Assembly: GCA_016647705.1 (NCBI GenBank)
Contig: CM028336.1
Coordinates: 14,516,880-14,580,879, forward strand
Direction: 5' to 3'
Length of the DNA stretch: 64,000 nt
DNA from: Eucommia ulmoides
Taxonomy: Eukaryota; Streptophyta; Magnoliopsida; Garryales; Eucommiaceae
Part shown: in pieces, positions 7,433-64,000 of the stretch
Numbering within the stretch: position 1 is the first letter of the stretch
Layout: each line of letters opens with the position of its first letter
The notes under the pieces: model-generated
The model's input: only the letters and a program-made list of their open reading frames with translations
What the model was told of the DNA's origin: nothing
Database searches by the model: none
Position numbers and translations under genes: made by a program

Positions 7433-7760
7433 ATATATATACACACACATACATATATACTACTATGTTCAGGCCCTTGTGGCTAAAATTTAGAATAAAT
7501 GGAAGACCTTTATCTCTTCGAGGATAAGAGTGCACCTTCTTCAGAAACGTTTCAGTTTTCTTAGTTACAAGTAGGACTAGCACATATACAATATATTTTC
7601 TTTTCTTTTTGAACTAATAACCTAAACCTAAACACTAAACTTGTCTATGCAAGTGAGTTCAGTTGGAGTGTTCTTGACAAAATTAAAAGTGTATATCCAC
7701 TTTTCATCGGTACGATTCATGTCCTTATCTAATTAAAAAAAAACATCTCGAGATAAACTA
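7433..7760. other. Stretch without recognised gene
   Basis: A short TA/CA-rich repeat, then AT-rich sequence with no coding signal. It lies between the Athila LTR and the hairpin pair and probably belongs to the Tat-like element on its right. Confidence 0.4.
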
Positions 7761-7763
7761 TAT

Positions 7764-7914
7764 GTCGACCTGATTCTCAGCAATCTGAGATATGTAGGCA
7801 ACTCACACACGGGTTCGGTCACTGTTGAAACCAAATCATCTTGGAAAGACGAATTATGTTTCAACCTGATCTTTGTGAAAACTAGGATATGTAGGCAACC
7901 TTTACAGGTTCGGT
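7764..7914 (-). repeat. Two hairpin modules (minus strand)
   Basis: Two copies (7820-7764 and 7914-7862, read on the minus strand) of the module described at 60202-61270. Copy 1 reads GAACCCGTGTGTGAGTTGCC, then CCTACATATC, an inner stem CTCAG-attg-CTGAG, then AATCAGGT. The copies lie about 220 bp beyond a conserved block (8430-8140), the same spacing as in the copy at 47300-47986. Confidence 0.7.
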
Positions 7915-8099
7915 CGACATAAAACATACAAAAATATTTTTCATTTAATCTTTTTTATCTGTTGCTGCTGATATATAGTAAATTTTCTTCCTTCCTGACA
8001 TTAAAAATACATAAAAAATAAAAAAATAAAAAAGACAAAAACGTTAAAAAAGTAAAATACTATGTTAAACACAACCAAAGAAAATTACTTGAACTTTGT

Positions 8100-11060: not shown

Positions 11061-11065
11061 GGGGG

Positions 11066-11575
11066 TTAAATCCCCGTCAGCCATCCATCTACTAAAGCAG
11101 GCCTGTGACAAGGATGGGCCGAGAAATTGGGCCTAAGAACAACGCAAGCCCAAACGAACTAAAGGGAAATCAAGTAGCAACCCAAAACTAATTCGCGCCA
11201 ACCCAGTGTGGCAGCCAGTTCGTACAGCCCATTGCGGTAGTCCAATATGGTAGAATACCAAAGAACAACTAAATCAAACCCACCATCCCACTACTTACAC
11301 CTAGATTGGGGAGAACAACCCACAATCAAGTAAGAGGAGAGTGAAATAACCACGTCTTGAGTACCAATGTCCGTTACTCAACCGTCCAAGAACCAAATAT
11401 ATAAATAGGAAGTAGTATGTTATTCAGTTATGTACTCACTTTTTGTCCATCTCATATTAGATAAAATTATTCTCACTCTGGAGATTCTTTAATTGACACT
11501 ACATCGGTATCACCTTTAACGTTTTTTGGTATTGCATGTTTAGGAGTAAGATTCTTTCCAACAACACATAGGATT
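11066..11575 (+). mobile_element. LTR-like promoter segment
   Basis: A purine tract (GATGGGGG) precedes this segment. A TATA-type box (AATATATAAATAGG, about 11396-11409) is followed by a CT-rich start region and CATCGGTATCACC near 11504, resembling a gypsy LTR/primer-site junction. No second LTR or clear duplication is seen. It could be a solo LTR or part of the neighbouring Tat-like element. Confidence 0.35.
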
Positions 11576-33500: not shown

Positions 33501-35053
33501 GGATTCGGGTAATGTAAAACCCTGTGCATCCACCCCATTGCCATCCTACCTCCAGTTTTATTGCTTCTCAGCCCCAATTTAAAAAAATAAATAAAAAAAC
33601 AAAAAAACCCAAAACAAACATTCCTTATCCACTTTTTACATCTCTCACACTTGGACCACACGTATTTGGTACCAAATGAATAACTGACACAATGGTTAAA
33701 AAAGGCAGGAACGCCCCAAAAATAGAAAACTCATTAAAAATTTAGGTGAATTAAAAAAACACGCACACGACAATTTAGGTTCAAATTTTTAAAAATATTA
33801 TAAATTGGAAGAGTTTTTTTTTTATTTTTTAATTGGCAATTAAACTAGACTTTTTTTTTTTTTTTTTTTTTACCTACGAAAACTAAGCTTTCAATTATAT
33901 CCATAGCTTTATATTTGTTTTAAAAATAATTATTTTAAAAACGAAAAATGCAGCAATTCCTCATGCACGAATTAAACGCAAATATAAAAATATTATAATG
34001 TGCATTAAATGGGTAATTAGAGAGAGAGAGAGTTACCCGGGCAGAGACGCAGCCAGCCAAAGCCATGGGGACAGTATACATGAGACTAGTTGTCTGAATG
34101 AGTATTCCGGTGGCCGCCACCGCCAGGCGGGGATTGGCCAAGTACCCGGCCATCACCGTCACGATCTCGTACCACCACCACTCCAAACATATCCCAATAC
34201 AACTCGGAACCGCCAGTCTCATCAGTGGCCCCACCCCACCACACACCTTCCCAATCCCCGCCGTCCATCTCCCCTCCCACTTTCCCCAGCCGTACACGTA
34301 CCCCCCCATCAACACCACCATGTGCAGGTTCGTCAGCACCGAAGCCACTGCCACGCCTTGGACCCCCATCCCCATCACCCCTACCAACACATAGTTTAGT
34401 GGTACGTGGAAAAGCACCGCAACAAAAGTGCACCACATCTGGGGCTTCGTTACCCCCTGTGACCGTAGATAAACCCTCAGGGGTTGTAGAAAACAGTTTG
34501 TCAGTAGATCCGGGAGGGAATAGATACAGTACGTCGCGGCCATTGATGTGATCTCCCTGTCTTGACCCATCATCACCATGATTGGTCCGAGGTTGACCCA
34601 GAGAAGGCTGATGGGTACGATTGCGAGTAATAGTATCAAGATCATACGGTGGAGAGATAGTGAGAGTAGGTCCCAGTTTTTGTTACCGTAGGCTTGGCTA
34701 CAGACTGGCTCCAGGCCGGAGGCTAGGCCGACGAGAACAGAGTAGCCAGTGATGTTTGTGAAGCCTATGGAGAGGGCTCCGCCGGCGAGCTCCAGGCTAC
34801 CGAGCCGGCCCAAAAAGAGAACCGAGACCACGGCTCGGACGTAGACCAAGCAGTTCATTGCAGTTATCGGCAAAGCCATGGACCATAGCTCCTTAAGCTC
34901 TTCCACCACCTGGGTTGATGTAAATAATATGATTTAGAAGATTTTAGAAATAAATAAATAGATAAAATGCTTTGTGGATTGATTTGGAGAAATTACCTGG
35001 CAGGGAGAGGGGAGTTTGTGGGACAAAAAGTCAGGGTCTTTATAATCTGCCAT
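24557..35053 (-). CDS. MATE (DTX-type) efflux transporter, three coding exons
   Basis: Exons, minus strand: 35053-34997 (19 codons), 34909-34037 (291), 25114-24557 (185 plus stop TAG). All junctions are GT-AG and in frame; the protein is 495 residues, normal for plant MATEs. MATE proteins are membrane antiporters that export metabolites or hormones against H+ or Na+. Visible signs are about twelve hydrophobic segments, [15 protein letters not shown] (80-94), LEWWWYEI (261-268), the exon junction in [16 protein letters not shown] (305-320) and [16 protein letters not shown] (381-396). The WWWYE motif is typical of the plant clade that includes Arabidopsis DTX47-DTX56. Members act at the plasma membrane or endosomes; the substrate cannot be read here. 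The start is the first ATG before the conserved FLSHKLP segment; the frame stays open upstream but is Phe-rich and UTR-like. It looks intact and is the only likely host gene in the window. Confidence 0.93.
26120..28150 (-). mobile_element. Copia-type LTR remnant with two related arms
   Basis: Two related direct segments, about 26830-27230 and 27760-28150, share a core around CCCACAAAGCA, a poly(A) tract and GCCCAAAGG, then TTCCATTCAT and CAAGAGTACC. A minus-strand TATA-like box (TTCTATAAATAAGG, about 26560) lies further left, as in an LTR read on the minus strand. The spacer (27240-27720) resembles part of a Copia interior. It is heavily broken and the family is uncertain. Confidence 0.45.
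29500..31850 (+). mobile_element. Copia (Ale/Retrofit-like) pol remnant with 3' LTR
   Basis: Plus-strand frames show the Copia reverse-transcriptase start (EPNSYREAS, then WQKAMRETL near 29735-29800), a YVDHM box within [14 protein letters not shown] (about 30700), and an RNase H-like end. A polypurine tract (TTGAGGGGATG, 31616) leads into a short LTR-like segment with TTCTAGAATATT repeats and a TATA box (31628-31850). The 5' LTR, gag and most of integrase are not seen. It is broken, with several breaks, and sits inside the MATE intron in antisense orientation to the gene. Confidence 0.75.
30055..30756 (+). repeat. 234-bp tandem triplication
   Basis: Three head-to-tail copies start at about 30055, 30289 and 30523 with an exact period of 234 bp (TCTACATGCATCCTCCCCTG at 30061, 30295 and 30529). 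The copies differ at only a few positions, so the amplification is much younger than the Copia remnant it lies in. The period is 78 codons. Confidence 0.9.
34910..34996 (-). other. Small intron (87 bp) of the MATE gene
   Basis: Donor GCCAG/GTAATTTC at 34996 and acceptor CAACCCAG/GTGGTG at 34910, phase 0. It is T/A-rich, as usual for plant introns. It separates the short N-terminal exon from the main exon. Confidence 0.85.
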
Positions 35054-46715: not shown

Positions 46716-47269
46716 GTTTTTCGTCTTTTGAGAATTTCGGGCATTAACTGTCGCTTGACTTGATTCGATGGCTGGTTGTTTTAGCTTCCCTCATGATGGC
46801 TGATGGGGAGCTGTGTTCGATCGATTTAAATGGAGAAGTCTGCAGGCTCTTCAAACATGTTTTTTGGAACGTTGCTTTCGTTGTCAAGCAGTCTGCACAT
46901 CCGCTTGCTACAATTAGTAATGGAAAAAGGTTTAGGATCTTCTTTTTTTCCTTCTAGAGGCAATGATGAGGTTGGGTCGTCATCTAGAGTCCCCAAAAGT
47001 AACGATGACATTGGGACATCATTCGGAATGTAAGGTGATGATGTCAATGGTGCCAAGACAGTAGGTTTGGTGATAGCTCAGAACGAAGGAACGAAATCGG
47101 CGGAGCCCCGTTACCAACCTATTTGTGACACTAATGCTATTGAGGCAGCGGCAGTGGGAGGGCAAAAATGGAAAACTGCTCATCGCTTGGTGAGTGACGT
47201 ACCTTGAATTTTTATAACAGAGGAATAAGATAATCTAAAACAAGAGGAAACAAGTTTCATTCCTCCATT
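46716..47269 (+). mobile_element. Unassigned element sequence, right of solo LTR
   Basis: Continuation of the sequence left of the solo LTR, of balanced composition, with short plus frames but no clear domain. By position it precedes the conserved block and hairpin pair, as the gag tail does in the minus-strand copy at 8780-9700, so it may be a degraded gag tail. Confidence 0.3.
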
Positions 47270-47590
47270 TCTAAGTTGTCCAAATTCGTTCATTTTGAAA
47301 ATGGTTTTTCTATGGCTTTTCTAAGCGTCGATTTTGAAAAACTTCTTTGGTTGGGATTTTATGTTGAAAACGGAGTCGTCACCTTTCATAGGATTAAATG
47401 GTGTGCTAGATCACCGGAATTTCAGAAATTCATTTTTCCTTTTAAAATGGCTCGTGTGTTAACTTCCAAAGGTCTGTGTACCAGAGATATTATTTAAGTT
47501 TTGGAGTCGATTATGCTTGGGGAAGGTTTTACGCACCCCAAGACACTCGTCCATAAAAGATACCTTGGTCTAAATAGATAGTCACTGTTA
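47270..47590 (+). repeat. Conserved noncoding block shared with 8100-8430
   Basis: Matches the reverse complement of 8100-8430 along its length, with phrases such as GAGTCGTCACCTTTCATAGG and GGGGAAGGTTTTACGCACCC. A hairpin pair follows about 220 bp downstream in both copies. It is short of coding potential and most likely an untranslated part of a Tat-like element. Confidence 0.6.
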
Positions 47591-47810
47591 AACATATCTA
47601 AGCAGCTTTCTTGATTTACTTAAACAAAAATAATTCCATTTTTTAAAACTTTTGCTCTTTTTATGTATTTTTCACATGATCCAATGATAAACAAGTAAAT
47701 ACTACAACTAATACTAGTCAGCGACATCCAATGACAATTTATATAGACAGAAATGTAAATATGCAAACTATATGAAATATAGACTAAGACTAATTTATTT
47801 GGATATGCGA

Positions 47811-47986
47811 TCGAACCCGCACGTGGGTTCCCTACGTATCTCGAATTAATGAGAATCAGGTCTTTAAGTAGTTTATTTGTGTTAGGTTAATGAATATGGT
47901 TTATGTTATTAAAGGTATAACCGAACCCCTATGCGTTGCCTACGTACTTTGGGTGGTTACCAAAGATCAGATCATCACGTAGTTCA
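47811..47986 (+). repeat. Two hairpin modules
   Basis: Units 47811-47872 and 47919-47986 follow the consensus described at 60202-61270. Unit 1 has AACCC-gcacgt-GGGTT, then CCTACGTATCTC and GAGAATCAGGT. Unit 2 has CTACGTACTTTGG with CCAAAGATCAGAT and CACGTAGTTC. Confidence 0.75.
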
Positions 47987-48402
47987 TTCTCGTTAAGTTG
48001 AAAGTTGGGCTGGTTTTAGTTGTTTATTAATTGGTTTTACTTGTGAACAACTTGAATTACAGCCATAACTAGTTATTATTAATAGTTTCTAAAGTTGTGA
48101 ACAACCAGAATCACAACCCAAATTATGTTTATTATTAATCACTTTTTAAGTTGTGAACAACCTGAATCAAAACATGACAACCTGGCTATGATCTTGACTT
48201 TTAACAGAAAGTAAATCCAGTTATTAGTAGTTATATAATTACTATTAAATGTTAGTAAAGAGTCGGTGTAAAGTTTTTTAGAGAATCGTAAAGAGTATGT
48301 ACAACTCATGGTGTGATTGAAGTTTTGTTTGAATCCTCACATGTTCTTAATATGTTCTCGGATGATTTAGGTCCTCATATGTTATTAACATGCTTGTAGG
48401 GG

Positions 48403-49278
48403 TCAGCATTCTTGAGATGCTTGTTCTTGTTGCCTCTGCTCCGCAAGTTTCCAATCTTTTAGACATATCAAAACTTTCACAGTATCTGGATTAAGACTGC
48501 AACGGGTTACTGATATAGTTCTACCACCAGCACTAAAAGCTGCTTTTGATGTAACAGTCGAAACTGAAACTGTTAGTATGCTATGGGCAATGGTGGAAAG
48601 AATGAAAATTTTTGTTGTTGAGATTTCCACCAAGCCAATATATTAATTTTTTTGTCATCACTATCAATAAGTTGTGCATTAAGGTAGCATTGCAATTCAG
48701 TTGAGTTACTGTTAGCAGATATGTTAGATTGTGATTTTTTGTATTTCCATATTGCTAGGGCTCCTCCTGTCATATTATTAGATGATGGAATAGGAGTAGA
48801 GTCTGAGGCATGTACTGAAGTTACATCAGTACCAACAATTCTTTTATAATGTTTGTATATATTAAAAAGTGAACTTCTAACAGTAGCCAAATACTGCTTG
48901 GAAAAATCAAGAATATGTTTAAAAATTGTTTCTAACCAACCTTCTAAGGCTTCAAATTTATATCTAGGGTCTAAAACTGTGGCAATTCCGTAAATTTTGG
49001 GTAATTCTTCTCCCCAATAATCCGTCTTGTACAATTATATTTAAAATATGAGTACAATATCGAACGTGAAATAAAAGACCATTAAGCAGCAAATCTAAAT
49101 AATTTTTAAGATATCTTTGAGCAACATCATTGTTAGAAGCGTTGTCAAAAGAAATTGAAAATATCTTGTCTTTAATACCCCAAGAATTCAATTCTGCAAG
49201 TATTTCATTAGCTATTATATAACTTGTGTGAGGAGTTTCAATCATTTTAAAAGAAATAATTCTTTTATTTATACACAC
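48403..49278 (-). pseudogene. hAT transposase pseudogene (RICESLEEPER type)
   Basis: Minus-strand pieces cover parts of a plant hAT transposase. The catalytic-core piece (49278-49035) holds KRIISFKMIETPHTSYIIAN and SISFDNASNNDVAQRYLKNY, with a FHVRYCTHILNIIVQDGL motif. The next piece (49034-48573) starts YWGEELPKIYGIATVLDPRYK and ends in CYLNAQLIDSDDKKINILAW, the hATC dimerisation region. The last (48633-48403) holds AFSAGGRTISVTRCSLNPDT and VLICLKDWKL. The first two join with a shift of frame and most of the middle domain missing; another shift lies near 48610. The BED zinc finger is absent. So no active transposase. Left inverted end may be TAGGGGTCAGCA at 48398. Confidence 0.85.
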
Positions 49279-49434
49279 AAATGGTCAATTCTTTAATGGG
49301 CTAAATGACTAATGACTTTAAAAAAAAACAAAAAAAAAATCTTACACTTACCTAAATTAGGGGGACAATTCAAGAAATTTTCTTAAACATTTGTCATGTC
49401 ATGACAACTATGTATACTTTTTTATTAAAATAAT

Positions 49435-49497
<63 letters not shown>

Positions 49498-49739
49498 ATT
49501 GTTATATTAGATATTTTTTATATTAAGTGAATAATATATATATATATATATGAAGTAAAAAAAAAAATTAAGTCTTATATTAATAATGTCAAAAAAATAT
49601 TTTTGACAATTGAACATTACTCTTTAACTCTTTCAACTAAATATTTATGCATAACCAAGATTTGTAGCCTAATGGTTACTTGGTTAATAAGATTGATTTT
49701 CTACTGAGAGGTCTAGTGTTCAATTCTCTTTCTCTTCAA

Positions 49740-49784
<45 letters not shown>

Positions 49785-50199
49785 CTATTTTGAAATCCAA
49801 AAATCCAAATATAATATATATAGTTATGGGCTTTGAAAGTCAAGCTTCAGGCTTAGATCTCGGGTAGCCCAAAAATCGGGTTTCAGGCTCGGGCTTCGGG
49901 CTGAGTTTCTATAAAATATTCAAAGCCCGAGCCCAATCGGAAGCCCTATGGTCTCAAGCTCGGGCTCGAGTCGGGCCAAGCCCGACGGGCTTCGGGCAGG
50001 CTTCCTGTAGCCTAGGGGCTTCAGGCTTTTTGGAGAGGCCTAGATGCTTGGAATGATTTTGTATTATTTAAACATAGTTTGGTTGTTATAGTAAAAAATT
50101 AAGTGTTTGTTTAGTTGTTATGACAAAATTAACTGTTTGTTTGATTGTTTATGGGTTTTATGTGTTATGTACATAAAATTAAAGTTGCTAACTATATGA
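49279..50199. mobile_element. Probable hAT flank with microsatellites
   Basis: Holds (AT)n(GT)n at about 49434-49494, a shorter (AT) tract near 49534, and (AT)n at 49742-49780. At 49856-50045 it is dense in GGGCTTCGGGCT and GCCCGA motifs on both strands, a pattern common in subterminal parts of plant hAT elements, so the hAT element may extend to about 50045. A clear right end was not found. Confidence 0.4.
49656..49745 (+). mobile_element. Possible tRNA-derived SINE
   Basis: An A-box-like TAGCCTAATGG and, about 45 nt later, a B-box-like GGTCTAGTGTTCAATTC stand in the order and spacing of a tRNA-type RNA polymerase III promoter. An (AT)n tail follows. It has no cloverleaf, so it is not a tRNA gene. 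No target duplication was found. Weak call. Confidence 0.3.
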
Positions 50200-50273
50200 T
50201 TATTCTATGTAGAAACAACATACACACGTTTAACTAAGATCAAAGGGGATTTTGAAGAAACATACCTACTTAG

Positions 50274-50517
50274 GGGATGTGGTCTTCCCCAAATGGTTAC
50301 CTCCTTTTCCTCCTCGACATTCTTGGTTGGAAGTTGATCAGTGATCGTCGATCTCTTGAGTTCTTGCTCCAAGAACCTCAAGAACACCCTAATTAAGGGA
50401 TGTGGTTGTCCCTAAGTTGCTATCTCTCTTCCTTCTTGATCCTCTTAGCTTGGTGTTGATTAGTGATCATCGATCTCTCCATTTCTTGCTCCAAGAACTT
50501 CAAGAACACCTTCTGAG
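50274..50517. repeat. 123-bp tandem duplication
   Basis: Two imperfect units start at 50274 and 50397 (GGGATGTGG), each ending CTTGCTCCAAGAAC and CAAGAACACC. Confidence 0.85.
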
Positions 50518-51088
50518 ATTGGATTTTAGCAGAATAACAGTGTGTTATTTGATAAACTTTCTTGAAAAGCGTAGCATCTGATAGATTTTCTCGTGCACCC
50601 CTATTTGTAGGTTAGGGGCTTATGCATTTATTAATGTGCAGGCCAACCCAACCTTTTCCTTGGGGGGTGTTTGGCCTAAGGGACATGCTATCTTGTATTG
50701 ATCTTATTCTGTGTTGAACAAATTTAAGGTGAAAGGCAATATCTTCAAAGATTTGGTAATGATTACAAATATTTTCAAAGATTTGGTAGTGATTGAAAAT
50801 CATTACCAATCATTACCTCCCCTCTAATCATATTTCTTTTATAAGGTTTCATTAATGGCTCGATGTGACTCATCCGGTTTGACCAAGGGACTAAGCACTA
50901 GTTAGTTTCACTATTTCGGTTTAATTGTCATTAATGCTTTCCAAATGCATTGAACCTAATCTTGATGTGTCACCATTGTATTTAATGCTCTTCGAAGAGT
51001 CATTGCTTGGTGAGCACTCATCCGGATGGTTGCGGATTGAATCGGGTTAACTTGCCTAGTAACTGGCAGTTGGTTTTCAAGTTCCTTA

Positions 51089-51660
51089 GGCCCCGTTTAG
51101 TTAGTGTTCCCAACCCAACCCAACCCAAAAATTTTGGATTTGATTTTTGGGAACATGTTTGGCAAACACAAAACTCAACTCAACTCAACCCAAAAAATAG
51201 GATTTGATTCTCAAAATCCTAAAGAAATCAGAAACAAAAAAAAAGTTATTTCTTTTTGTACCCAAAAAACTCAACCCAAAGTTCTCAACTTCCGTCTTCA
51301 TCTGCCGGCCAACCACCACTACCCGCTGTCGTCCGTTGCCGTCGGCCACCGTCCGGCGACCGACCGCCATCTCCAGCCACCGTCCGGCGACCGACCGCTG
51401 TCCTTAGCCACCTCTGGCGACTGTCGCCGCCCGCCGGCAGTCGGCCCACCGCCGCCAAACACAAAAAAAATAAAAATAAAAAAAAAAAAATAGTTTTAGG
51501 ATAAAATTATTACCAAACACATTCTGTTCTCAGCACAAAATAAGAATTGTCGTTACCAAACGCAATTCTGTTCCCCAAATTCTCAACCCAACCCAATTCA
51601 ACTTAACCTAACCCATTCCAGTTGGGTTCAAAAAAGTGGAAACACTAACCAAATGCCACC
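51089..51660. mobile_element. PIF/Harbinger-type MITE
   Basis: A 572-bp element with imperfect inverted ends, GGCCCCGTTTAGTTAGTGTT on the left and, reversed, GGTGGCATTTGGTTAGTGTT on the right. The target duplication is TTA (51086-51088) and TTG (51661-51663), one mismatch. Inner copies of CAACCCAACCC-type words are inverted too. The middle (51300-51460) is unusually GC-rich with CCGTCCGGCGACCG repeated, unlike the rest of the element. No transposase. Confidence 0.75.
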
Positions 51661-52302
51661 TTGGTTACCCTGAGATATTTTGATGAAAATATCTAGATTC
51701 GTTGAACCTAGACCTTAAATATCATCCGAATAATTTATTGCTTGATGGGATGTGCATTTAATGCATTGTCTAGGTAGCAAAACAATTTAAGTTGGTTTCG
51801 GTAACGAGTAGTCACAATTCAAGGTTTTCAATCATTCCTAAGCTATTTTGCTAAAAATATATAGATCCCTTTGAATGTGGCCTACCCATGCTATCCCAAG
51901 CATTTAATTTTTTATGGAAAAGGAATTCAATGCTCATTAAATGCCTAACTTAGGTGGTGAAAGGAATCGGTTTAATTTCGATAACGGTTTGTTATATCTT
52001 AAGTGTCTTGGTGCCCTTCTTATATATTTTGTAGGAAACTTCTAGGAAGGTTCCTTGGTAATTTCATAGCCTTTTTTGAGGGCCTCTAATGATGTCTAGA
52101 CCCTTAATTCATTGGTCCTAGGGTGGTTTGTCAAGACAACTTAGTTTTGGTGTAAATCTAAAACAGCCCAAGTCCTTAATCACCTTGGTGATTTAGGGCT
52201 TGTCATGACCTTTCCAAGACTTGATTAAGGTATCTTGGATTGTTTCTTGGTGATATTTGATATAATATATACATAATTGAAATAATTATTTTTTGGGCTA
52301 CA

Positions 52303-53000
52303 CCGACAAGATTCAGTGATTGTAAATGTTTCAAGGCCAGGGTAGATAACTGGAGTAATTCAATTTAAGGGTAGTGGCTAATTTTTATCTATACTAAAGA
52401 TGATTTCATGAAAATCAAACTTTAATAAAGTCATTTTAGACCCCCCTTAAATTACAGAATTTTTGAGGTTGACCCAAAACTTTTAGTTAATTGCATTTTG
52501 TCAAATTTAACATTTTTGTGTTTTTCTCATGATTTTTGGTATTTTTGTATATTATACAGTGTAATCTCATGTAGAAATTCATTCCTTTTAAACCCAAGTT
52601 TAAAATTTATCTGTAATTGTACTTGATTTGACACTGACTGGGCAGGACAAAATGCAGTGTCTGCAACTGCTCCTATTTGTCATGCAAGTTTACTCATAAT
52701 GACAAAGAATGAGACATTAACATTTTTTTTTTCTCTAGACATGAAATAAAAAGTCATGTATTTAAATCTATCCTAAAGGATGAAGACATACCTGATCCTT
52801 GAGGATTCGACGAAGATGGCGATTGGTCACTTCTACTATTCTATACTTCAAAGGATGATAACCTTAGAAGATTACTACTGGAAGGATGGTGACACATCTG
52901 ATTCTTGTCTATCTGCATTCCTGGAGGATGGCGATATATCTGATCCTATAGGGCGTGGTGAGGATGACACTTTGTACAAGCCCTCCTAAGCATTATACTA
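52303..53000. other. Stretch without recognised gene
   Basis: AT-rich at first. At 52770-52990 short repeats of the type GATCCT(T/A)(G/T)AGG and GATGGCGAT appear, which also occur near 53450, so this is probably the degraded start of the hairpin array on its right. An open plus frame of 69 codons here has no family signal. Confidence 0.4.
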
Positions 53001-53115
53001 TTATATTATACTACTGGCTGGCCAAATTTTAAAATAAAACTATACTACTGTCGCATTACACTACTATCGCATTACATTACCATTGCATTATACTACTGGT
53101 TACATTACACTACTA
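53000..53115. repeat. Short minisatellite
   Basis: Irregular units built on TACTACT and GCATTACA, about 18 bp each. No coding value. Confidence 0.65.
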
Positions 53116-53170
53116 TATCTCAAGATGGTGTTCACATTACCTGACCCTAAAGACTCGACTCCTAGTTGTG

Positions 53171-54585
53171 ACCATACCCAAAGAGGTCTCCTATATATCT
53201 CAAATTAATAAGAATCAGGTCATGTGTAATTCTAGTAGGTAAAGTAAATTATACTACAACAATATATTATTATCCAAAATTATTAAAATGTTGTTTGGTT
53301 GGTTGTTTGCTTTACACTACGAAATTAAAATACACTGGCTGGCTGTCTGCTTTACATTACAAAATTAAAATACACTAGTTGTCTGCTTTACACTACAAAT
53401 TTAAAATGCACAGGATGGAATTAGTAAAATATAGTTCCTAAAGGATGATTCACGGTCTATCCTATAGGAGGTAGGGAGGATGGCACTTGGTCAATCGGCT
53501 CCTAGTTGTGACTGTACCCTAAAGGATTCTCCTACACATATCAAATTATTGAAAATCAAGTCACATATAGTTCTAACATGTAAAATAAATCATGATTTAG
53601 TGGAATGGTTCTAGGTTAGAGAAACCAATTTCGAGGTGTCTAATCAATCTGAGACTGAAGTCGATTATATATTCAACTATTGATTTTCATGAGTTAGCTT
53701 GACCGAACCCCATTGGGATGCCTATATGTCTCAGACATGACTGAGAATCAGGTCAAATGTAGTTCGATCTGTTAAAGTAACTCAATATTTGGTGGAAAAG
53801 GTTTTTGGTTAGAAAAACTAATTCCTGGGTCATCATATCAATACATGATTGAAAATGATTGAAAGAATTCACATGGGCGATGACCCTCGGGGAAAATCAA
53901 CATCTAGTGGAGTTTTTTTGCCACATCCCACCTGGACTGCCCGACTAAGACTAGAAAACTTCTTGGGGGAAGTTTATTCTCAGATAAAATGTTCCCCAAT
54001 CATAGACTCAGGCTTTGTGATGCTTGTTTAGGTCTAGGATTATAGTTTTCACTTGGTGATTGGTGCGAGTCTTATATCAAGAAACTCTCTAAGGAGAAGA
54101 CCTAATATAATGTGCCCCAGCTCTAGTTGGGGTAACTCCTATTACAGAATCTCAACGGAGAAACTGGATATAATATGCCCCAGCTATAGTTGGGTCGAGT
54201 CCATCACAAATTCTAAATGAAGAAATCGGATATAATGTGTTCCAACTCTAACTGGGGCATAGGACTATATCCTGAGCATTCAAAAGATGCAGTAGAGCCC
54301 ATGCAAGTTGCCTTTATGACTAAACTGAATGCGAGATTGTAATATTTGTTTTAGTCTGGAAACCATATTGGGTTGTTTATGTATATTAATATTATTGTTT
54401 TGGTTGATGATCGCTAGATGATCGAAACCCACCTGAGTTATCTAAATACATTGACTTCTTAGGTTAGGAATACAGTTGAAATGTCGTTTGGCCTTTGATG
54501 TGCTATGTAAGATTCTCAACTATACCCAAAATGGCTTCCTACGTACCTTAGTAATCTACCAAGGATCAGGTCAATGCTTAGTTCG
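53171..54585 (+). repeat. Hairpin-module array, left part (about 4 units)
   Basis: Recognisable units lie at 53171-53234, 53510-53575, 53701-53766 and 54516-54585, more degraded than those at 60202-61270. In 53701-53766 the inner stem is TCTCAG/CTGAGA. In 54516-54585 it is CCTTAGT/ACCAAGG with one mismatch. The Athila-like element at 54669-60147 has separated this part from the right part of the array. Confidence 0.7.
54067..54259 (+). repeat. Three 63-bp repeats with a CCCCAG...TTGGGG hairpin
   Basis: Three head-to-tail units end at about 54132, 54196 and 54259. Each carries GATATAATGTG or similar, followed by a self-complementary segment such as CCCCAGCTCTAGTTGGGG. In the third unit the left arm is changed while the right arm (ACTGGGGC) is kept. 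Confidence 0.75.
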
Positions 54586-54668
54586 AGTACAGGTATCCTT
54601 TGTTGTCTGCTTAACAAAAGGATTAACTTCTCTAAGAAGTCAAGGGACTTCTCGGGAAATGCGCCCTG

Positions 54669-57600
54669 TGGTGGCGGAATATTACATCGCCACTTTCACC
54701 GCAAGTGTACGGGTCAAGTTTTAGTATAGATGGAAAGGAGTAGGGGTTGTCTTATCCACAGGAATTGGTTGAGATTATTATCGAGTACCGCGATTGTCAT
54801 AACCTAATTTTATCTAGGCGATACAAAAATAAAGTTTATAATTAATTAATACTAATACTAAGTTAATTAATCTAATTGTACTAATATTACTAATATGAAA
54901 TATTTAGGGGAAAATATTATCTAGGGATTAACTTCGTTTACAAAAACGTGTTTAGTCTCATTTAGTTTACAATAACGGTCTTTTACCTATCTGACAATCT
55001 CTGTATCGTAAACTCACTTACCACCTCTTTTGAGTGTAAGATGAATGACTATGAGACTTCGTGTCAACGAATAAGTCCTCCTCAATGTCTTAATGACACT
55101 AGGTCGCACGAGTCTTGTCCTAATGTCATGGATTGCACACTCTCTAACTCTCTCTCGGGTTATTAGATCGTCGCGTTGTGTTTACCCTAGTCTAAATTCG
55201 GTGTTACCTCAAACCCCGATTTCTCACTATATCTAAACAAGCATATAATCATGATAAACCAATAAACACAATCGAAATAGCGAAGAACAATCATTAACGA
55301 AACACAACTCAAACAAACAACGATTTTATAAATATTATTAATTCCTAGACAAAATCCATTTAGCTCATAGCCATATCCATTTATACAATGAAAAATAAGA
55401 TAAACATGCTCAACAAACTACCAAAGTTAAGAAAATAAAGAGAGAAATGGAAGAACTTAGTCGTAGTTCGAAGATTTGCCGCTAAAATCATTCAACGATC
55501 TCTTTTCTTTCTTCGCAACGTGTTTTTCTCCTTCGGAATTGGTTGAGCACTCCCCAAAACACTCTCAAAATATTAGGAACCTTAAGGGGTCTCTAATGGG
55601 CTCTCTTTGCTGAATGGAGAGGAGATGAGAATATATAGGGAGCAAAATATCTAATAAATATCTAAAATTGTGTGCAGAGTGACCGCCGCAGTGGTGGGTA
55701 TGTCAGTTGTGTCTTCGCTGTAGCGGTAGATGAGGCAGTGGGAGCAGAGTCTGGCTGTTGTTTCACCGCCGCGATAATGGATCTTACCGCTGCGGTGGTA
55801 GATGTTTAGAGTTTTTTTAGGCATTATCTACATCTTGACCACCTCGATGATGGTTTCACCGCCGTGGTGGTGGGCTGCAGGTTCTGAATTTTAGTCTTTA
55901 TGCTTGTTTTCCCACCGTTCTTCCACCATTCTTGATCCTATTTGATCGTTTATGATCCATTTTCATCCATTTTCACCCCCACACACCTAATTTATACAAA
56001 AAGAATAAAAACGTATTAAAACGTAATAAACATACTCGAAAACTAATAAGTTCGATTTGGAAATAGATAGGTAAATTACACCTATCAAATACCCCCAAAC
56101 TTGAAATTTTGCTATTTCTCGAGAAACACCCACACATTACAAGAAAATATAACAACTAATTACAAAATTAAAAACTAAAAATGAAAAACACTAAAAACAA
56201 TAATATGCAAGTTTTGAATATCATCTACCGGCCAAATGATTTTTCCTCATCAGCCCCCAATCCTCTCAAGTTCAAGAATAAAACACACCATGTTGTGTTT
56301 TAGAATTTCAACATTCGATGATAGTAAGCGCCATTCTAGATCTTGTCTAAAGTGTGTGTGTTAAAACTCAAATATACAACTATCCATCGATCAAATGAGA
56401 TTATCCCTCAAATAAGCTCATGACTAAAACCATTTAGTTATAGGGAATCCATAACCCTGACCTGGGTTCTATTCTCTACTAATGTAGGCTCGGAGGTTCA
56501 CAAAGATCAATAGGTCTTGGTTCGGTTTAGGAATATGGCCAAGAGTATATCGGAATAGAAAACGGGTTAACGTTGTTAACTTAACGTTACCCAAAGCTCA
56601 ACACTTGGCACAAAATCACTCTCGAACCCCCATATATAAATTGAAACAACCCTGAACATACATTTAAGAACGACGTACTCACTTGTCAAATAAATAGAAA
56701 TTTAAACAATATTTACATATGCTTTTTGTTTTTTCAAACATACCACACCCCCAAACTTATTTGATTATTAGAATTTCACAGGTGTGGTTAAAACTAAAAG
56801 AAAAAAAAAAACGACAAGTGAATACTCAAATACCGAACCAATTAAAAGTTCGCCCTAAACCCAACCACTCACTTCAAGTAGCATTTGCAACTACTAACTT
56901 GATTAACTCAAATTGTGCCTTTGGCTCAATGATAGAGGTTTAGAATGAAGTTTTATCGGCTAGGGTATCTGTTTAAGTGTTTAGAATTGAAACAGATATT
57001 TGGCTTCAACAGAGTAATGATAGATAAATAATATTACATGGTAGGCTTAAAAGGCTCAAGAGATCAAATGAATGCCTAAATCATATCTCCCGAACTACCT
57101 CACCTAGAATTTTGCCTCGAATTTCCCCCAAATCAAGTTCTAAAATCCCTATTGTCATGAATTTGGGTGACAGATAATCGTTTTCAAATGAAATAGACAG
57201 TTATACATTGAGTTTACGTGCTCGTGCATTTAAGATCTACAATAACTTTTACTAAAACGATAACTTAAGTACACAAAACACACATGAATAAGCTTTACAC
57301 TCGACCTCAATAAACAATCAGAGGACAAACTCATCATTGGGTAATGGCCCAGATGAAGTCAAAACTCAGCACATAACAACAACTAAGTTAAACAAACTAA
57401 TCCTAAACAAACATGCATACATAGAAAATAAAAAAACATACTACACATCACCACCAAACTTAAAACGAACAATGTCCTCAACAACCCATCAACGATCCCA
57501 ATAGAAGCATATAGCATGATAATGAAGATGGGGGTTTAGAACACGTACCTGGAAGGCGAGAGAATCTCGCCTCTGAATTAAATCGACAGTAATATATCTA

Positions 57601-60147
57601 ATTATTTTTTTTCCTTGGGTTGCCTCCCAAGAAGCGCGTGGTTTATTGTCCTCGGCCCGACATGGAGAAGTACTTATCAAAGAGCGGTTTCGGCCTATAG
57701 TAAGTGTCGTACAATACCACATATGGGTCTTGATTTTGTACACCCTCAAGACTGGTGAGATAAGGCTCTAATTGGCCCAAGCTTTCAACGAAACTCTCCA
57801 CCGGCTCAAGTGCTTGTTGGGCATGAAAGAACATTGCTTTCGGCGGCGAAGGACAAGTGAGCCGTATCAGATCCTCCTAAATATGAGTGTCTGAGATCGA
57901 TGGTGGCATCACGATTTGGATCTCCAATGATGACGAATCATAATCATCGATCCATGCTTGGGTTCCCGGCTCATTTGAATAATCATAGTTGAACTCTCCC
58001 AAGCTCCTTCCATTCATTTTCGGCTCCTTATGGTGGCTTTCATTGAATGTGGCTTGTGAATTTCCCAATGCCACCACGTTTGACCGATTTGCGTCTGAAG
58101 AGATGTTACGGTCGTATCGACTTCAGTGCAGATCATCTCAATATTGTCAAGACGATCTTCATGCTCATTGATCTGGTCATTCGTCTCCCTCCAAAACGCT
58201 TGAGTCTCCCCAATCAAATCAACGAATATTTCTTCCAGGGCGGGGGAAGACTCAACATATTGGTCCAGTGTGTCAATCTATGGCGCCGAAAGGTTGAAAC
58301 TATCCCCCAAGCTTTTATAACTTGGTGAATAATTCCAATACTGAAAATCGAACTCGGCCATGTCTTCCAATAACTGATAGGCTCCGTCCGTGGTTAATTG
58401 GTTGAAAGAGGTGGTACTGTTTCCTCTTTCAACCCAACTTCTTATTGTGGCTAATAACCAATCGAATAAGTTTAGTAGTTGACACTCTCTTTGGAAATCA
58501 TGGTTCGAAAATCGGAATAGAAATTCCTTGTATTGATCGCAAGTACTATAAAACGGCTCAGAATCCTATTGAAAAAAATGCAAGAGTACCTGTTGATCTA
58601 ACATCTTCAAGCACCCTGCAAGAAAACAAAAACAAAACTAGAAAGAAAAAAAATTATAACAAAAGAAATGCCTAAATTAAAATCGAGTCATCTACTCACA
58701 ATATCGACAATAATCTAAAACACAATCCCCGGCAACGGCACCAAAAACATGGTGGCGGAATATTACGTCGTCACTTTCACCACAAATATACGGGTCAAGT
58801 TTTAGTATAGATGGGAAGGAGTATGGGTTGTCGTATCCACAGGGATTGGTTGAAATTATTATTGAGTACCGCGATTATCATAACCTAATTTTATCTAGGC
58901 GATAAAAAAATAAAGTTTATAATTAATTAATACTAATACTAAGTTAATTAATATAATTATACTAATATTACTAATATGAAATGGTTAGGAGAAAATATTA
59001 TCTAGGGATTAACTTCGTTTACAAAAACGTGTTTGGTCTCGTTTAGTTTACAATAATGGTGTTCAACCTATCTAACAATCTCTGTATTGTAAAATCAGTC
59101 ACCACCTCTCCCGAGTGTAAGATGAGTAAATATGGGATTTTGCATCAACGAAGAAGTCCCCCTCAACGTCTTAACGACAATAGGTCTCATGAGTCTTATC
59201 CCAACGTCATGGATTGCACACTTTCTAACTCCTTCCTGGGTTATTAGATCATCGTGTTGTGTTTACCCTAGTCCGAATTCGGGGTTACCTCAAACTCCGA
59301 TATCTCACTATATCTAAACAAGCATATAATTATGACAAACCGATAAACACAATCGAAATAGCGAAGAACAATCATTAACGAAACACAACTCAAACAAACA
59401 ACGATTTTATAAATATTATTAATCCCTAGACAAAATCCATTTAGCTCATGGCCATAACCATTTATACAATGAAAAATGAGCTAAACATACTCAACAAACT
59501 ATAGAAGCTAAGAAAATAAAGAGAGAAACTGAAGAATTTAGCCGTAGTCCAAAGATTTGTCGCTAAAATTATTCAACGATTGCTTCTCCTTCTTCGCAAC
59601 GTGTTATTCTCCTTTAGAATTGGTTGATCACTCCCTAAAATACTCTCAAAATATTAGGAACCCTAAGGGGTCTCTAATGAGCTCTCTTTGTCGAATAAAG
59701 AGGAGAGGAGAAGATATAGGAAGCAAAATATCTAAGTAAATATCTAAAACTATGTGTAGAGTAACCGTCGCTGCAGTGGGTATGTCGGTTGTGTCTTCAC
59801 CGCAGTGGTGGATAAGGTGGTGGGAGCAGAGACTGGCTGTTGTTTCACCGCTGCAATGGTAGATCTTAGCACTGCGGTGGTGGATGTTCAGAGATTTTTT
59901 AGGCCTTCTCTGCATCTTGACCACCTCGACAATGTACTGTAGGTTCTGAATTTTAACCTTAATGCTTGTTTTCCCACCGTTCTTGATCCGATTTGATCGT
60001 TTATGATTCGTTTTCATACCATTTTACCCCACACACCTAATTTGTACAAAAAGAATAAAAAAGTACTAAAACATAATAAAACTTAATAAACATACTTGAA
60101 AACTAACAAGTTCGGTTTGGAAATAGATAGGTAAATTACACCTATCA
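54669..60147 (-). mobile_element. Athila-like non-autonomous Ty3 element, nearly complete
   Basis: Minus orientation. The 5' LTR is 60147-58750 and the 3' LTR 56087-54669, both TGATAGGTGTAATTTACC to CCGCCACCA, about 1.4 kb. The primer site (58743-58726, TGGTGCCGTTGCCGGGGA) fits the 3' end of plant tRNA-Asp with one change, the Athila/Tat habit. The polypurine tract (AGTTTGGGGGTATT) lies at about 56088-56101. The flanks CCCTG (54664-54668) and CCTTG (60148-60152) form a 5-bp duplication with one mismatch. The 2.7-kb interior has a gag-like minus frame (58217-58014, TSLQTQIGQ) but no pol, so it never moved by its own enzymes or is a reduced form. The LTRs differ at about 7 in 100 sites in the first 330 bp, mostly transitions, implying a few million years. 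Confidence 0.9.
58726..58743 (-). promoter_or_regulatory. Primer-binding site (tRNA-Asp type)
   Basis: TGGTGCCGTTGCCGGGGA on the minus strand, just inside the 5' LTR of the Athila-like element. Its complement ends CGGCAACGGCACCA, against CGGCAACGGCGCCA in plant tRNA-Asp. Confidence 0.8.
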
Positions 60148-60201
60148 CCTTGATATTGATTTGAGAAAATGTCATGATGCTGACATCTCTATGACTTCGA
60201 T

Positions 60202-61270
60202 TCGACCCACTTGGGCTTCCCGCGTACCTTGGTGATCTACCAAGGACAGGTTAAAGCATAGTCTGCTGGGGATGGAGAAATTTTGTTTAAGGTGACGACC
60301 CAACCTATAAAGGTTTCACGTATCCTAGTATTTACCGAGACTCAGGTCGACACCTAATTCCTCCTTGGCTGGTTAAAGCTTAGCATGGTTAAATCTGAAT
60401 TAGTGGGCTATTGTTATATTTGGTATGGTTCAATTCCAATTGATTGGGAGATTTATTATCGAGCAACTATGTGGGAATTTTATTGTTTGTCACGATTCAA
60501 TCTCAATTGGTGTGGGATTTTGTTAATGGCGACCAAAGAAGGTTTCCTACGTATCTTGGTAATTTACCAAGAAAGTCGGAACAATAGTTCAGCGCTTATT
60601 GGTTTCTCAACCAAACCCACAGGGTTTTCCTATATATCCAGGGCTTTGCTAAGAGTCAAGTTAACATATAGTTCCTAGTTAAGCATCCTCTATTGTTTGG
60701 TAAACAAGAATGGTGCATATAGCTTTTCTCAGGAGAGTTAAAGGACTATTCCTAGCGATGTTCCCTGGTCTAGGGCTGAGAAAGTGTAATAAAGATGATA
60801 CCCCTCTCCCTTTTTCATTTCGATCGAACCCACTTGGGTTTCTTACGTACCTTGATGATGTACCAAGAATCTGGTTTAAACATAGCTGGGTATTCTTGGT
60901 TGTCAACCGAACCTTGTAAAGGCTTCCTAGTTTCCTAGGTATCCTTGTTTTCACAGGAAATCTGGTTGACACCTAGTTCAATGCTCATTAATGGTTTATA
61001 ATTTAAAGGGCACAACCAAAACTTGTATATGGGTTGCCTACGTATCTCAGATATCTGAGAATCAGGTTGGCACGTAGTTTATCGCACATGGTTGGGTTTA
61101 AGTTTGTCAACCGAACTCGAAAGGGTTTCCTACGTATCCCTGGCTTCGCCGGGAATCAGATTAACACGTAGTTCCTGCACAATTGATGAGTTTGTGGTTG
61201 TTAATCGAACCTTGTAAAGGTTTTTTACGTATCCCGAGCTTCGTCAGGAATCAGGCTGACACGTAGTTCC
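60202..61270 (+). repeat. Hairpin-module array, right part (9 units)
   Basis: Units: 60202-60264, 60297-60360, 60531-60590, 60611-60676, 60823-60886, 60906-60979, 61013-61080, 61109-61174, 61203-61270. Consensus: hairpin I (AACCC-loop-GGGTT), then TTCCTACGTATC, an inner hairpin II, AATCAGGT, and CACGTAGTTC, whose ACGTAG pairs with CTACGT as an outer stem. Stems vary in a paired way. Hairpin I: ACCCA/TGGGT at 60823, AACCTT/AAGGTT at 61203. Hairpin II: CCTTGGT/ACCAAGG at 60202, TCTTGGTA/TACCAAGA at 60531, TCTCAGAT/ATCTGAGA at 61013, TCCCTGGC/GCCGGGA at 61109. Spacing is 80-235 bp. There is no coding frame through the array. Confidence 0.8.
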
Positions 61271-62129
61271 CACGCTTTTGGTTTAATGAAATTTGTTAAG
61301 TTCATTATGATTTGAGTATTTCATTTCACGTCATGAGACATGATGAACGTTGTTTCTATCAAGAAAACAAGGATATGATTAAATGTGCCCCTGTCGTATA
61401 TTGAGGCAGCGATTGGATAAGTTTTGTTGGGGAATTTAATCTGACACTTCTTATTGTGCGACTTGCTGTTATTAATAGTGTGAAATATACCCTAGCCTGC
61501 AGGATGGGGAGGAGACTGATTAGTTACTGGATTGAGAAGCTTAATCGGTTTGTCTCACTATTTGTCGGGGTGATGAATTCTAGATTTCATTGATTTAAAT
61601 CCCAAAATATACCTGCCAATGGGTTTGTTATTATATTTATGTATTCTATGAGAGTCTTGAATGTCATCTTTTGTTACACTAGATTGATAGTGTAATTTAA
61701 TTAATTTATCTCTTGTATATCATTGTTTATTCTTTAAAGTATATTTGTTTAGTATGTTAATATTTCTCCTAAGAGAGATAGGTTTGTAAATTTTGGTATA
61801 TCGCATTTTTAGGGGCGGGATTTTTCGGCTCGATTTTCTTGATTATACCTTGGTTTAAGTAATAAACATTAAATTTTTTAAACTAAAGAATGTAGAATCC
61901 TACCCGTTGATCTTGAAAGGATGAAATCAATCTTTTACCACTAGTGCTCGGCTAGCGATAGATAGTTAGAGATTAATCCTGGCTGTTTATGATTGTTTTT
62001 ATAGAATAATGGTAGCAGTGAGTCTGACATATCTTTTAAAGTCACGTAATAATCCTAAAAAATTCAAATTGTATCCTTAAGTTGAAACCCTAGTGATAAG
62101 ATTTTGACTTTTATTTTTTAGTAAATATT
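61271..62129. other. Stretch without recognised gene
   Basis: Follows the hairpin array and precedes the 172-codon open frame. It contains AAATGTGCCCCTGTCGTATA (about 61381), reminiscent of the NATGTGCCCCAG word in the 63-bp repeats at 54067-54259. It may be the leader of the gene that follows. Confidence 0.4.
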
Positions 62130-63245
62130 ATGTCAGCCATGGGTTCTTTAAGTGATAGTGATCATCATCCTTCCCGCTCTGGTAGGAAGGGAAAAGCTCC
62201 TAATACCTCAATCAAAGGGAGTGATTCAAAGCGCTCTGGAGGTCAACCCAGGATGTCGGCACTCAGGATTTCTGATGATGTGCCTAGCCTTTCCACTTTG
62301 ATTGTTGAGAAGTTCTTCAGAGCTTCTAGAGTTGATGACTCGACGATGGCTGGTTTATTAGATGCTCCTATCGATCAGGATTCTGCTGGCCATTCTGTCA
62401 CAGCTGAGATGGCAGTAGATCTAGACTACGGCCCTCCAGAGGATAAAATGCCCATGTGTGGCATTCCTGATGATTTCCCAGGAGACAACTTCAAGCCTAG
62501 AGATCTTATTCCTAGACCCTTTCAAGATAGAATCCTTACATTTTATGCAACACGGCTTCATCCGATAAAGCTTGAGAATCAGACCTTAGTAGGAGATCTT
62601 CATGACCATCCTTCTATTTACCTCAATTCTGCTCAAGTTCGCTATTAAAACCTTTCTTAATTTTCTCCTCTTTCTAAAAGAACAATGTCTTATATTTTTA
62701 TAGGTCGACCCCCATTATAACGAGGTTTTCAAGGGGTCATGGTTGACTTTTACACATTCTACTTAAAGATGATGCATTTTGAATACCGCTTATTCCTCTA
62801 GGGATACGACTTCAAAGATTTTCTCAGCATTCAGGCCTCTCACATGGATCATGGTTATCCTAATGCCCAGATTGAGTGTTGGTTTTTCATGACGAATTCT
62901 CTTCACCTAGTCTGCAGAGAGTTGGTACCGATGCCCCTTGACTGGGCGCTAATCACTGGAGTTAGGTTCCGAGGTGGAGCCGTTCCTTTGAGGGAGACAT
63001 CATAGGTAGATGTGAATACTATACCAGTAAAGGCGAGGAGCGAAACGCGTATTCAACAAAACAGCTTAGTGCCTGAGTCGGTCTTTACATTTCTAGCTCC
63101 AAAGGACTCGGTGTTGAAGGATCAACGCTATCGTGTCCTACTGCTCCTATTATTTGGTGGGATTTTCATGGCTTCCTTCTTTAGAATTTTGGCAAATCTT
63201 CCTTTGTGGATGGTCTTCTTCTCTTGTCAAAAGATCCACTCTTAA
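62130..63245 (+). pseudogene. Broken gene, possibly plant-mobile-domain-like
   Basis: An open frame of 172 codons (62130-62648) starts MSAMGSLSDSDHHPSRSGRK, a charged, Ser-rich N terminus with no recognised domain. A plausible 67-bp intron (GTTCGC at 62637, TTATAG ending at 62703) leads to a second coding stretch. Around 62890-62990 it encodes HLVCRELVPMPLDWALITGV, and at 63120-63180 RYRVLLLLLFGGIFMASFF. The order of these two segments recalls the plant mobile domain (PF10536-like), found in MAIN/MAIL proteins and many transposons. The frame after the intron is interrupted more than once, so I call it a pseudogene. It could instead be a retroelement gag. It lies directly downstream of the hairpin array. 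Confidence 0.4.
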
Positions 63246-63516
63246 GGTAACTCTAAAGTGTACCACAATTGTCTCGTAAATAAAAACCAAGCATTCTATG
63301 GTGCACGATGATTTTTCTGGGTCTATGGTTTTTAATGAATTTGTATCACAAGATAGTATTTAATAAGGCTTTATTATTGATAGTGGGAATCATGGGAATT
63401 TGTTGTATTGTGTATAATTGGTTCAGTTATGACTGTAGGCATACCAAACTGGTTTTGAAATCGACTATCGTTGATCAAGATCGTAAGTTATCATGAAGGT
63501 ATGATGATAAGGTAGA
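63246..63516. other. Stretch without recognised gene
   Basis: Sequence of ordinary composition with no family signal, between the broken gene and the short repeat array. Confidence 0.4.
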
Positions 63517-63842
63517 ACCTTCGATCATTTGAGGTAGGATGGTATGGTAGAATTACCGACTACTTAGGTTGGATAAAATGTATTTCACCGACCCATGTGA
63601 GGTGGGTATGAATTGTCTATTTCTTTGACCAATTGAGGCAGGCGATGATGTACTCTTCCAACTACTTAAGGTTGGACCACATGCTGCAATCTCTGTCTAG
63701 GATAGTATGTAAATTCTCTGACTACTTAAGTGGCTAGTAGGCATTCTTTTCCGAAGGCTTGAAGTAGGTAAGAAAGTTGGTTTTCTGACCCCTTAAGGTT
63801 GGGCAGTAAGTAAATTTTCTGACCACTTAGGGTTGGACAGTA
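63517..63842 (+). repeat. Array of about 9 degenerate palindromic repeats
   Basis: Units of about 25 bp, spaced 30-45 bp, follow TTCTCTGACYACTTAAGGTTGG. Clear ones start near 63519, 63553, 63583, 63623, 63656, 63715, 63748, 63783 and 63817. Several hold an ACTTAAGGT-like palindrome flanked by partial CC/GG pairing (for example CCCCTTAAGGTTGGG at 63790). No coding frame is conserved across the units. Confidence 0.7.
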
Positions 63843-64000
63843 TTTCTCTTACCTTTTCCTTTTTCCTATGTCGTTTGTTCTCTCAACTATCAACCTAGAG
63901 ATGAAGGAAGAACATAGACAATTGAAAGGTATAGCTTGCTATGTAGGTTTGCTAGATTTCTCGCAGTTTTTTTACTTTCATTCCTTCTAATCCTGAAGAA

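Follow-up and report, generated by a model that had tools for sequence, protein, structure and literature searches.

To our knowledge, covarying RNA structure has rarely been shown for plant LTR retrotransposons. HDV-like ribozymes have their helices in the order P1, P2, P3, P1', P4, P2', with the catalytic C in the joining segment between P4 and P2. Non-autonomous plant retrotransposons with hammerhead ribozymes, namely the retrozymes, have been described (PMC4918200, available in part), and in the Retand lineage, according to the available part of PMC11963269, an LTR element can contain antisense ORFs as well as tandem arrays. The LTR element of Eucommia ulmoides that we describe here likewise has an antisense ORF and tandem arrays; however, no TRP28 ORF was found inside it. 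It resembles the retrozymes, as far as the available part of their description goes, as a putatively non-autonomous plant retrotransposon with a structured RNA motif, but neither the window nor eight unit-bearing loci gave a hammerhead match. Like the LARDs it has long LTRs, of about 3 kb, around an extensive interior in which no gag-pol was found, but it differs in its conserved antisense ORF and in its tandem modules with covarying helices. Finally, it shares with Ogre/Tat Ty3/gypsy elements the LTR edge with the primer site TGGCGACTCC...TGGGGA, a purine tract and an antisense ORF, but it is without gag/pol in the internal regions examined, and no named counterpart of the tandem structured module was found among Ogre/Tat elements. 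Since no gag-pol with an Ogre/Tat reverse transcriptase was found, we class the host element, by its ends alone, as an Ogre/Tat derivative rather than as one of that group. Titles and abstract beginnings in the literature, together with the available parts of PMC11963269, PMC7264820 and PMC8794818, hold no description of such modules that we recognised, and the listed titles of papers containing unit words look like chance primer matches.

The window is the whole 64,000-nt stretch C12:14516880-14580879 of a 946.7 Mb assembly, the one genome sampled. The original prediction placed nine tandem units near its end and counted 17 in all. We found the nine at 60200-61269 on the + strand, and a covariance model (R1) built from 13 window units recovered 17 in the window, each with an E-value of at most 5.9e-5; 13 of these match by construction, the other four being A1, A2, A3 and A6. 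The 17 form groups of nine (A1-A9), four (D1-D3 and D5), two (C1 and C2) and two (B1 and B2, on the - strand), while an 18th unit, D4, was recognised by eye and missed by R1. The stem sequences quoted in the prediction are present, TCCCTGGC/GCCGGGA needing a bulged T, but the units extend far beyond the kilobase for which they were described. In the following list, all units except D4 were found both by eye and with R1.

7755..7823, - strand: unit B2, within the family's second LTR copy, whose left edge lies near 8502
7851..7919, - strand: unit B1, in the same LTR copy as B2
47807..47874, + strand: unit C1, inside the LTR
47915..47985, + strand: unit C2, inside the LTR
53165..53232, + strand: unit D1
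53505..53573, + strand: unit D2
53696..53765, + strand: unit D3
54417..54489, + strand: unit D4, decayed and doubtful, by eye only
54515..54584, + strand: unit D5
60200..60264, + strand: unit A1
60291..60360, + strand: unit A2
60528..60590, + strand: unit A3
60606..60674, + strand: unit A4
60822..60888, + strand: unit A5
60901..60979, + strand: unit A6
61011..61080, + strand: unit A7
61105..61174, + strand: unit A8
61199..61269, + strand: unit A9

Two further units lie past the end of the window (L062, 293-554), and the median spacing of units is 99.5 nt (60 spacings under 160).

A unit is about 70 nt long and runs, on the strand as read, through H3a (GTCAACC), one nucleotide, the S1 hairpin (approximately AACCC/GGGTT), two nucleotides, Oa (CTACGT), an A, the S2 hairpin (6-8 bp, highly variable in sequence), ATCA, H3b (GGTTGAC), Ob (ACGTAG) and TTC. 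The hairpin-in-hairpin architecture that had been predicted agrees with our result that hairpins S1 and S2 and the outer stem O (CTACGT/ACGTAG) covary, but its set of helices was incomplete, since a fourth covarying helix, the previously unreported H3 (GTCAACC/GGTTGAC), crosses the outer stem (in the order H3a, Oa, H3b, Ob, with no linker between H3b and Ob). Because H3 crosses O, the unit can form a pseudoknot, and we predict that the two helices probably do so, or otherwise give two alternative folds. In the genome-wide alignment of 150 units described below, pairing is mostly intact in H3 as well as O in 105 units, and in all four helices in 60. The unpaired ATCA, the A before S2 and the TTC are fixed in 91-99% of these units, the most fixed letters including parts of Oa and Ob, the tail TT, ATCA and the A before S2. 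The folding energy is modest, with a mean z of -1.10 that is equal on both strands (150 units). We also observed that H3b of A8 (GATTAAC, 61159-61165) is perfectly complementary to H3a of A9 (GTTAATC, 61200-61206), so pairing between units is possible.

On the complementary strand, which is the strand of the host element, the helices follow in the order O, H3, S2, O', S1, H3', the same nested order as in HDV-like ribozymes. However, the equivalent of the joining segment is here one variable nucleotide, and column 10, the equivalent of the catalytic C, is not conserved (on the read strand, G in 99 and A in 42 of the 150 units). Rfam 15 gave no match at the gathering score in the window, and five matches in eight unit-bearing loci, with E-values of 1-7.8 and all below the gathering score. 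Since the column at the catalytic position varies and no ribozyme match was found in Rfam, reading the units as ribozymes would be a weak proposal.

The pairing of these helices was examined among the 18 window units. When the 3' arms of S2 were exchanged among units, none of 200,000 swaps attained the hairpin energy observed, and when Watson-Crick and G-U pairs were counted in registers set by hand, the observed count was reached in 3 (S2), 113 (H3), 4,429 (S1) and 4,951 (O) of 100,000 permutations. S2 also came first when all 1,596 pairs of 6-column windows were scanned, and among the 25 window pairs listed, only S2, H3 and O had at least 3.5 of 6 positions paired. We then compared double-changed pairs with a tree null, using three variants of the set and tree and 2,000 replicates. 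Here S2 showed 22-26 such pairs against 6.5-8.2 under the null (reached in 0-1 of 2,000 replicates), H3 16-17 against about 7 (5-11), S1 7-9 against 2.5-3.3 (15-144), and O 8-9 against about 4 (98-157). No single pair was significant among the 18 units in an R-scape-like test, the best being O_5 with E = 1.59.

To extend the analysis beyond the window, we scanned the genome. It contains 3,197 occurrences of the word CCTACGTATC, compared with 648 of the same word reversed, and 430 of a strict unit pattern, compared with none in the control. Among the 100 strict matches listed, we used the 87 with cores of at least 16 nt (13 were dropped), and arm swaps matched the pairing at their five free S2 pairs in 0 of 100,000 trials in each of four variants. 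Searching 55 sources with R1 (overlapping L003, L005, L037 and L038 omitted) yielded 197 units at an E-value cutoff of 0.001, the best 150 of which make up the alignment, the 47 weaker ones being omitted; as the loci were fetched by exact motifs, the sample leans to intact units. The strict pattern is matched by 3 of the 98 units not counted as fetching targets, where all strict units in L039-L058 are counted as such targets. Scaling the 430 strict occurrences by this ratio gives about 14,000 units, an estimate that is wide, biased, based on three counts and good for the order of magnitude only. Motif sequences of this type presumably also occur, without a name, in other plants; prokaryote and viral contigs searched for stray plant DNA gave 0 and 0 matches.

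The alignment was fitted to S1, O and S2, while H3 was absent from its model. Over the four helices, 84.4% of cells are paired in the 150 units, against 28.8-40.0% when the partners are slid. Cells changed on both sides number 390 against 181.5 in shuffled alignments, and the covariation score is 0.317 against 0.223, neither value being reached in 500 shuffles; two weaker measures, namely pairs with a both-side change (19 against 17.4, reached in 100 of 500) and further pair types (52 against 48.4, reached in 30 of 500), stand closer to the shuffled values. H3 has both-side changes in all seven of its counted pairs, and its fraction of paired cells, 76.0%, is the lowest of any helix.

We then used a maximum-likelihood tree and a null in which the changes of each column are preserved, with 300 replicates. 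Branches on which a pair was co-substituted and stayed paired numbered 12.5 for H3 against 4.3 under the null (highest null value 11), 15.0 for O against 2.7 (highest 8), 12.0 for S2 against 3.5 (highest 9), and 7.0 for S1 against 2.0 (highest 8, so that at least 1 of 300 replicates reached the observed value), a 2.9-5.6-fold excess across the four helices. The three highest z values among 2,346 column pairs belong to the proposed pairs S2_1, O_5 and S1_5, while many other proposed pairs are unremarkable singly in this test. Under a branch-preserving, R-scape-like null, S2_1, S1_5 and O_5 again rank first to third, but no pair in the 150 units has E below 0.05, the best being 0.14 for S2_1. 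Thus, the predicted covariation, once the phylogeny of the copies is considered, holds for whole helices, which exceed the tree null, but not for any single pair at E < 0.05.

The alignment contains 59 units from LTRs and 60 from internal regions, 31 of the 150 being assigned to neither. Treated apart, both sets support S1, O and S2, with at most 3 of 20,000 arm swaps reaching the observed pairing. H3 is significant within the 60 internal units (0 of 20,000 permutations) but not within the 59 LTR units alone (2,153 of 20,000). Mean pairwise identity is 0.62-0.66 inside the units against 0.28-0.34 in their flanks.

The units had been suggested to belong to a retroelement, and an LTR edge, a primer site and a purine tract indeed define a host element, whose parts in the window are as follows.

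47195..52665, - strand: 3' LTR of the host element, bounded by TGACGTACC on the left and ...ACAAAATGCAGTGTCTGCA on the right
47195..47680, + strand: conserved LTR-edge module, about 485 bp long, ahead of the units
52666..52677, - strand: purine tract adjoining the 3' LTR, AATAGGAGCAGT on the - strand
52666..64000, - strand: internal region of the host element, running on to 70059 outside the window
54669..60147, - strand: younger LTR element inserted in the array, LTRs 54669-56087 and 58750-60147
61271..62130, + strand: 860-bp conserved stretch after the internal arrays
62133..62645, + strand: first part of a conserved ORF antisense to the element

The LTR ends in TG...CA. Its left edge, TGACGCACC or a variant, is common to 15 of the 16 copies compared and absent in L027. 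The sequence before this edge differs among copies, except that it is common to L020, L024 and the copy at 70060, as expected if these three are 5' LTRs read from the interior side. The right edge, at 52665 in the window, is common to L008/L060, L014 and L035 and diverged in L063. Three LTR copies measured 2748, 3454 and 3656 bp, the longest including an insertion of about 580 bp and having flanks (CTACC and TTATC) that are not an exact target duplication. In the window, later insertions interrupt the 3' LTR between about 48.17 and 50.04 kb. A second LTR starts at coordinate 70060, 6 kb past the window end, and is the closest relative of the 3' LTR among the copies compared (83.9% over 968 columns).

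Beyond the far edge, purine tracts lie on the opposite strand (AAGAGAGGCAGT, AAGAGGGGCAAC and AATAGGAGCAGT in L014, L035 and the window, respectively), and the near edge is followed, on this same opposite strand, by GT and the primer site TGGCGACTCC. When up to 3 mismatches are allowed, this LTR-primer junction is present at 1,189 places, compared with 9 in the control; 22 are exact, and in 7 of the 8 exact copies examined the site continues ...TGGGGA. We take it to be a primer site of the tRNA-Arg type, and presumably of the Ogre/Tat type; in the window's own element it is degraded. Since both the primer site and the purine tract are on the opposite strand, the element strand is opposite to the strand read, and the units, which had been interpreted on the strand as read, lie antisense to the element. 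The LTR module also contains a word resembling the primer site in reverse complement (window 47372-47383, GGAGTCGTCACC; L081 1826-1836), which makes a second primer-site-like word on the element strand inside the LTR. Other observations in the LTR are 30-bp repeats around TTTGGTAATGATTAC beyond the units (50738-50794), with similar words in other copies, and a hAT-like transposase fragment (PF14372, 1.7e-7; 48576-49034, - strand), which is a later insertion.

LTR copies examined hold one to four units, roughly 530-920 nt from the LTR end on the primer-site side. Three of the eight exact primer-site copies (L077, L078 and L079) have units in their own LTR part, those in L081 are part of another copy, in opposite orientation and at a distance of about 130 nt, and the other four have none at E 0.1 within 3 kb. 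Because five of the eight are thus without units in their LTR part, the unit-bearing copies form only one section of a larger group.

Without the inserted element, the internal region is about 11.9 kb long and holds D1-D5, A1-A9, the 860-bp stretch and the antisense ORF. The younger element, which we take to be Athila-like, has LTRs that are 86% identical and flanks CCCTG/CCTTG, a likely target duplication with one mismatch; this 5.5-kb insert separates D5 from A1. The 860-bp stretch was matched at 13 places (overlapping L036 and L059 counted once), 12 of them without a match to the LTR module and one, L012, with a weak match (64% over 185 columns). LTR and interior units have near-zero similarity in their flanks, again with L012 as the one weak double match. 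We had accordingly considered two host families, an LTR-module type and an 860-bp type sharing flanks only, and weakly, at L012, and replaced them by a single element, because the former is its LTR and the latter its interior.

The antisense ORF has 49.7% identity over 171 aa to L059/L036 and no Pfam match. Gag and pol pieces of L061 had no match in the window, L059 or L062 at E 1e-4. The gypsy pol of L061 was also rejected as the units' own, lying on the wrong side for the orientation, with no unit in L060/L061. Separately, L080 carries an ORF matching Transposase_32 (PF20167, 2.3e-14; 881-1414, - strand) about 100 nt after an exact LTR-primer-site junction, possibly a lead to an autonomous partner, or a nested insertion.

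Near locus B, an ORF at 10316-10972 (- strand) resembles TRP28 (PF04195, E 6e-5, below the cut-off) and lies beside an LTR-like stretch at about 11056-11550 (+ strand), the two apparently being what remains of a Retand-type element; the same arrangement of ORF and LTR recurs in a relative, L065 (62.8% over 549 columns). An identity of the units' host as Retand POL-3'LTR, suggested by this ORF, was rejected, since the LTR edge separates it from the units and the neighbourhoods of four other TRP28 ORFs, searched over 40 kb, gave no unit at E 0.1. Elsewhere in the window, three tandem copies of a 234-bp unit (30051-30758) match at 97% and are probably recent, and a MatE-type transporter ORF (33938-34933, - strand; 9.3e-45), together with a second ORF that by eye resembles the C-terminal part of a transporter (24560-25114, - strand), is perhaps a host gene.

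We propose, with a probability of about 0.55, that the units are structured modules of about 70 nt in a non-autonomous LTR retrotransposon, whose fold is kept at the RNA level as a cis-acting signal. Selection on RNA would keep this fold, a pseudoknot or two alternative folds, in active copies, while the present-day copies would be decaying neutrally. Since the element seems to be without its own gag-pol, it would depend on a helper. The likeliest role would be that of a repeated signal in genomic RNA, serving recognition or packaging by the proteins of an autonomous helper, or RNA export, and repetition would raise avidity. Packaging or recognition as such, which position and repetition suggest, is a tentative assignment. 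The original prediction had named packaging among the possible roles, together with translation and a Pol II pause. Units in variable number, on the primer-site side of the LTR and near the 3' end of the interior, are more easily reconciled with an array for recognition or packaging than with a device acting at one site. Against the proposal stand the five of eight exact primer-site copies that have no units in their own LTR part, and the LTR units may lie upstream of the transcription start.

How the pairs change bears on this proposal. In one reconstruction, 44 changes from one Watson-Crick pair to another are spread over 43 branch-helix combinations, 42 of which have a single such change and one of which has two; 42 of the 44 changes are of transition type, about 29 running from GC to AU and about 14 from AU to GC, and the commonest changes, C>T and G>A, are those of transition-rich decay. 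This looks like stepwise compensation rather than the copying of arms by template switching, and the stems do not look like the few converted palindromes that the original prediction had named as its alternative. G-U and A-C mismatches on the read strand number 295 and 264 in the 150 units, and are about equal at inferred ancestors too, so that neither strand shows the G-U tolerance that selection on RNA predicts. As the folding z is also equal on both strands, the strand that folds is not indicated; a preference for the element strand hinted at by 18 units (mean z -1.30 against -0.94) was lost with 150. We read the parity of the strands as neutral decay of dead copies, and it equally fits a process at the DNA level.

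Such a process is template-switch (quasi-palindrome) mutation, which copies one arm of a hairpin onto the other with no selection on RNA, and which is able to create and maintain hairpins according to the available part of PMC8794818. The near-equality of G-U and A-C and of the folding of the two strands is what it predicts. However, arm copying should replace several neighbouring pairs at once and produce changes of any type, while only one combination has two double changes and nearly all are transitions; moreover, the arms of H3 are about 46 nt apart with other helices between, and H3 crosses O. We therefore consider template switching unlikely as the source of the pairing. Also rather unlikely is that the units are an unnamed pseudoknotted fold with an HDV-like helix order, tandem in LTRs and interior, whose repeated modules jointly form an array for recognition or, in a bolder version, a processing element for genomic RNA.

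The units might also act in DNA or in nascent antisense transcripts, as protein-binding palindromes, as signals for pausing or 3' processing that serve the antisense ORF, or as a cruciform. The read strand is the strand of this conserved ORF, and units on the same strand flank it on both sides at two loci (the window with L062, and L059). Nevertheless, a protein site would need fixed letters, yet the stems vary while pairing holds, and crossing helices could not be extruded together as a cruciform; a role of this kind seems doubtful. Least probable is that a few founder palindromic units spread and that independent C-to-T and G-to-A decay turned C-G into T-A pairs, since, for all the abundance of transitions and of GC-to-AU changes, the column-preserving tree null gives less than half the observed co-substitutions for every helix, the AU-to-GC double changes run against deamination, and S1, O and S2 beat arm swaps within LTR and internal units alike, H3 doing so in internal units only.

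This genome holds at least hundreds of copies of the unit, with its four covarying helices, and their number is perhaps of the order of ten thousand. So many natural variants of one fold would permit a sharp test of how defective retroelements recruit helper proteins, and they would also allow selection at the RNA level to be tested against correction of arms at the DNA level.
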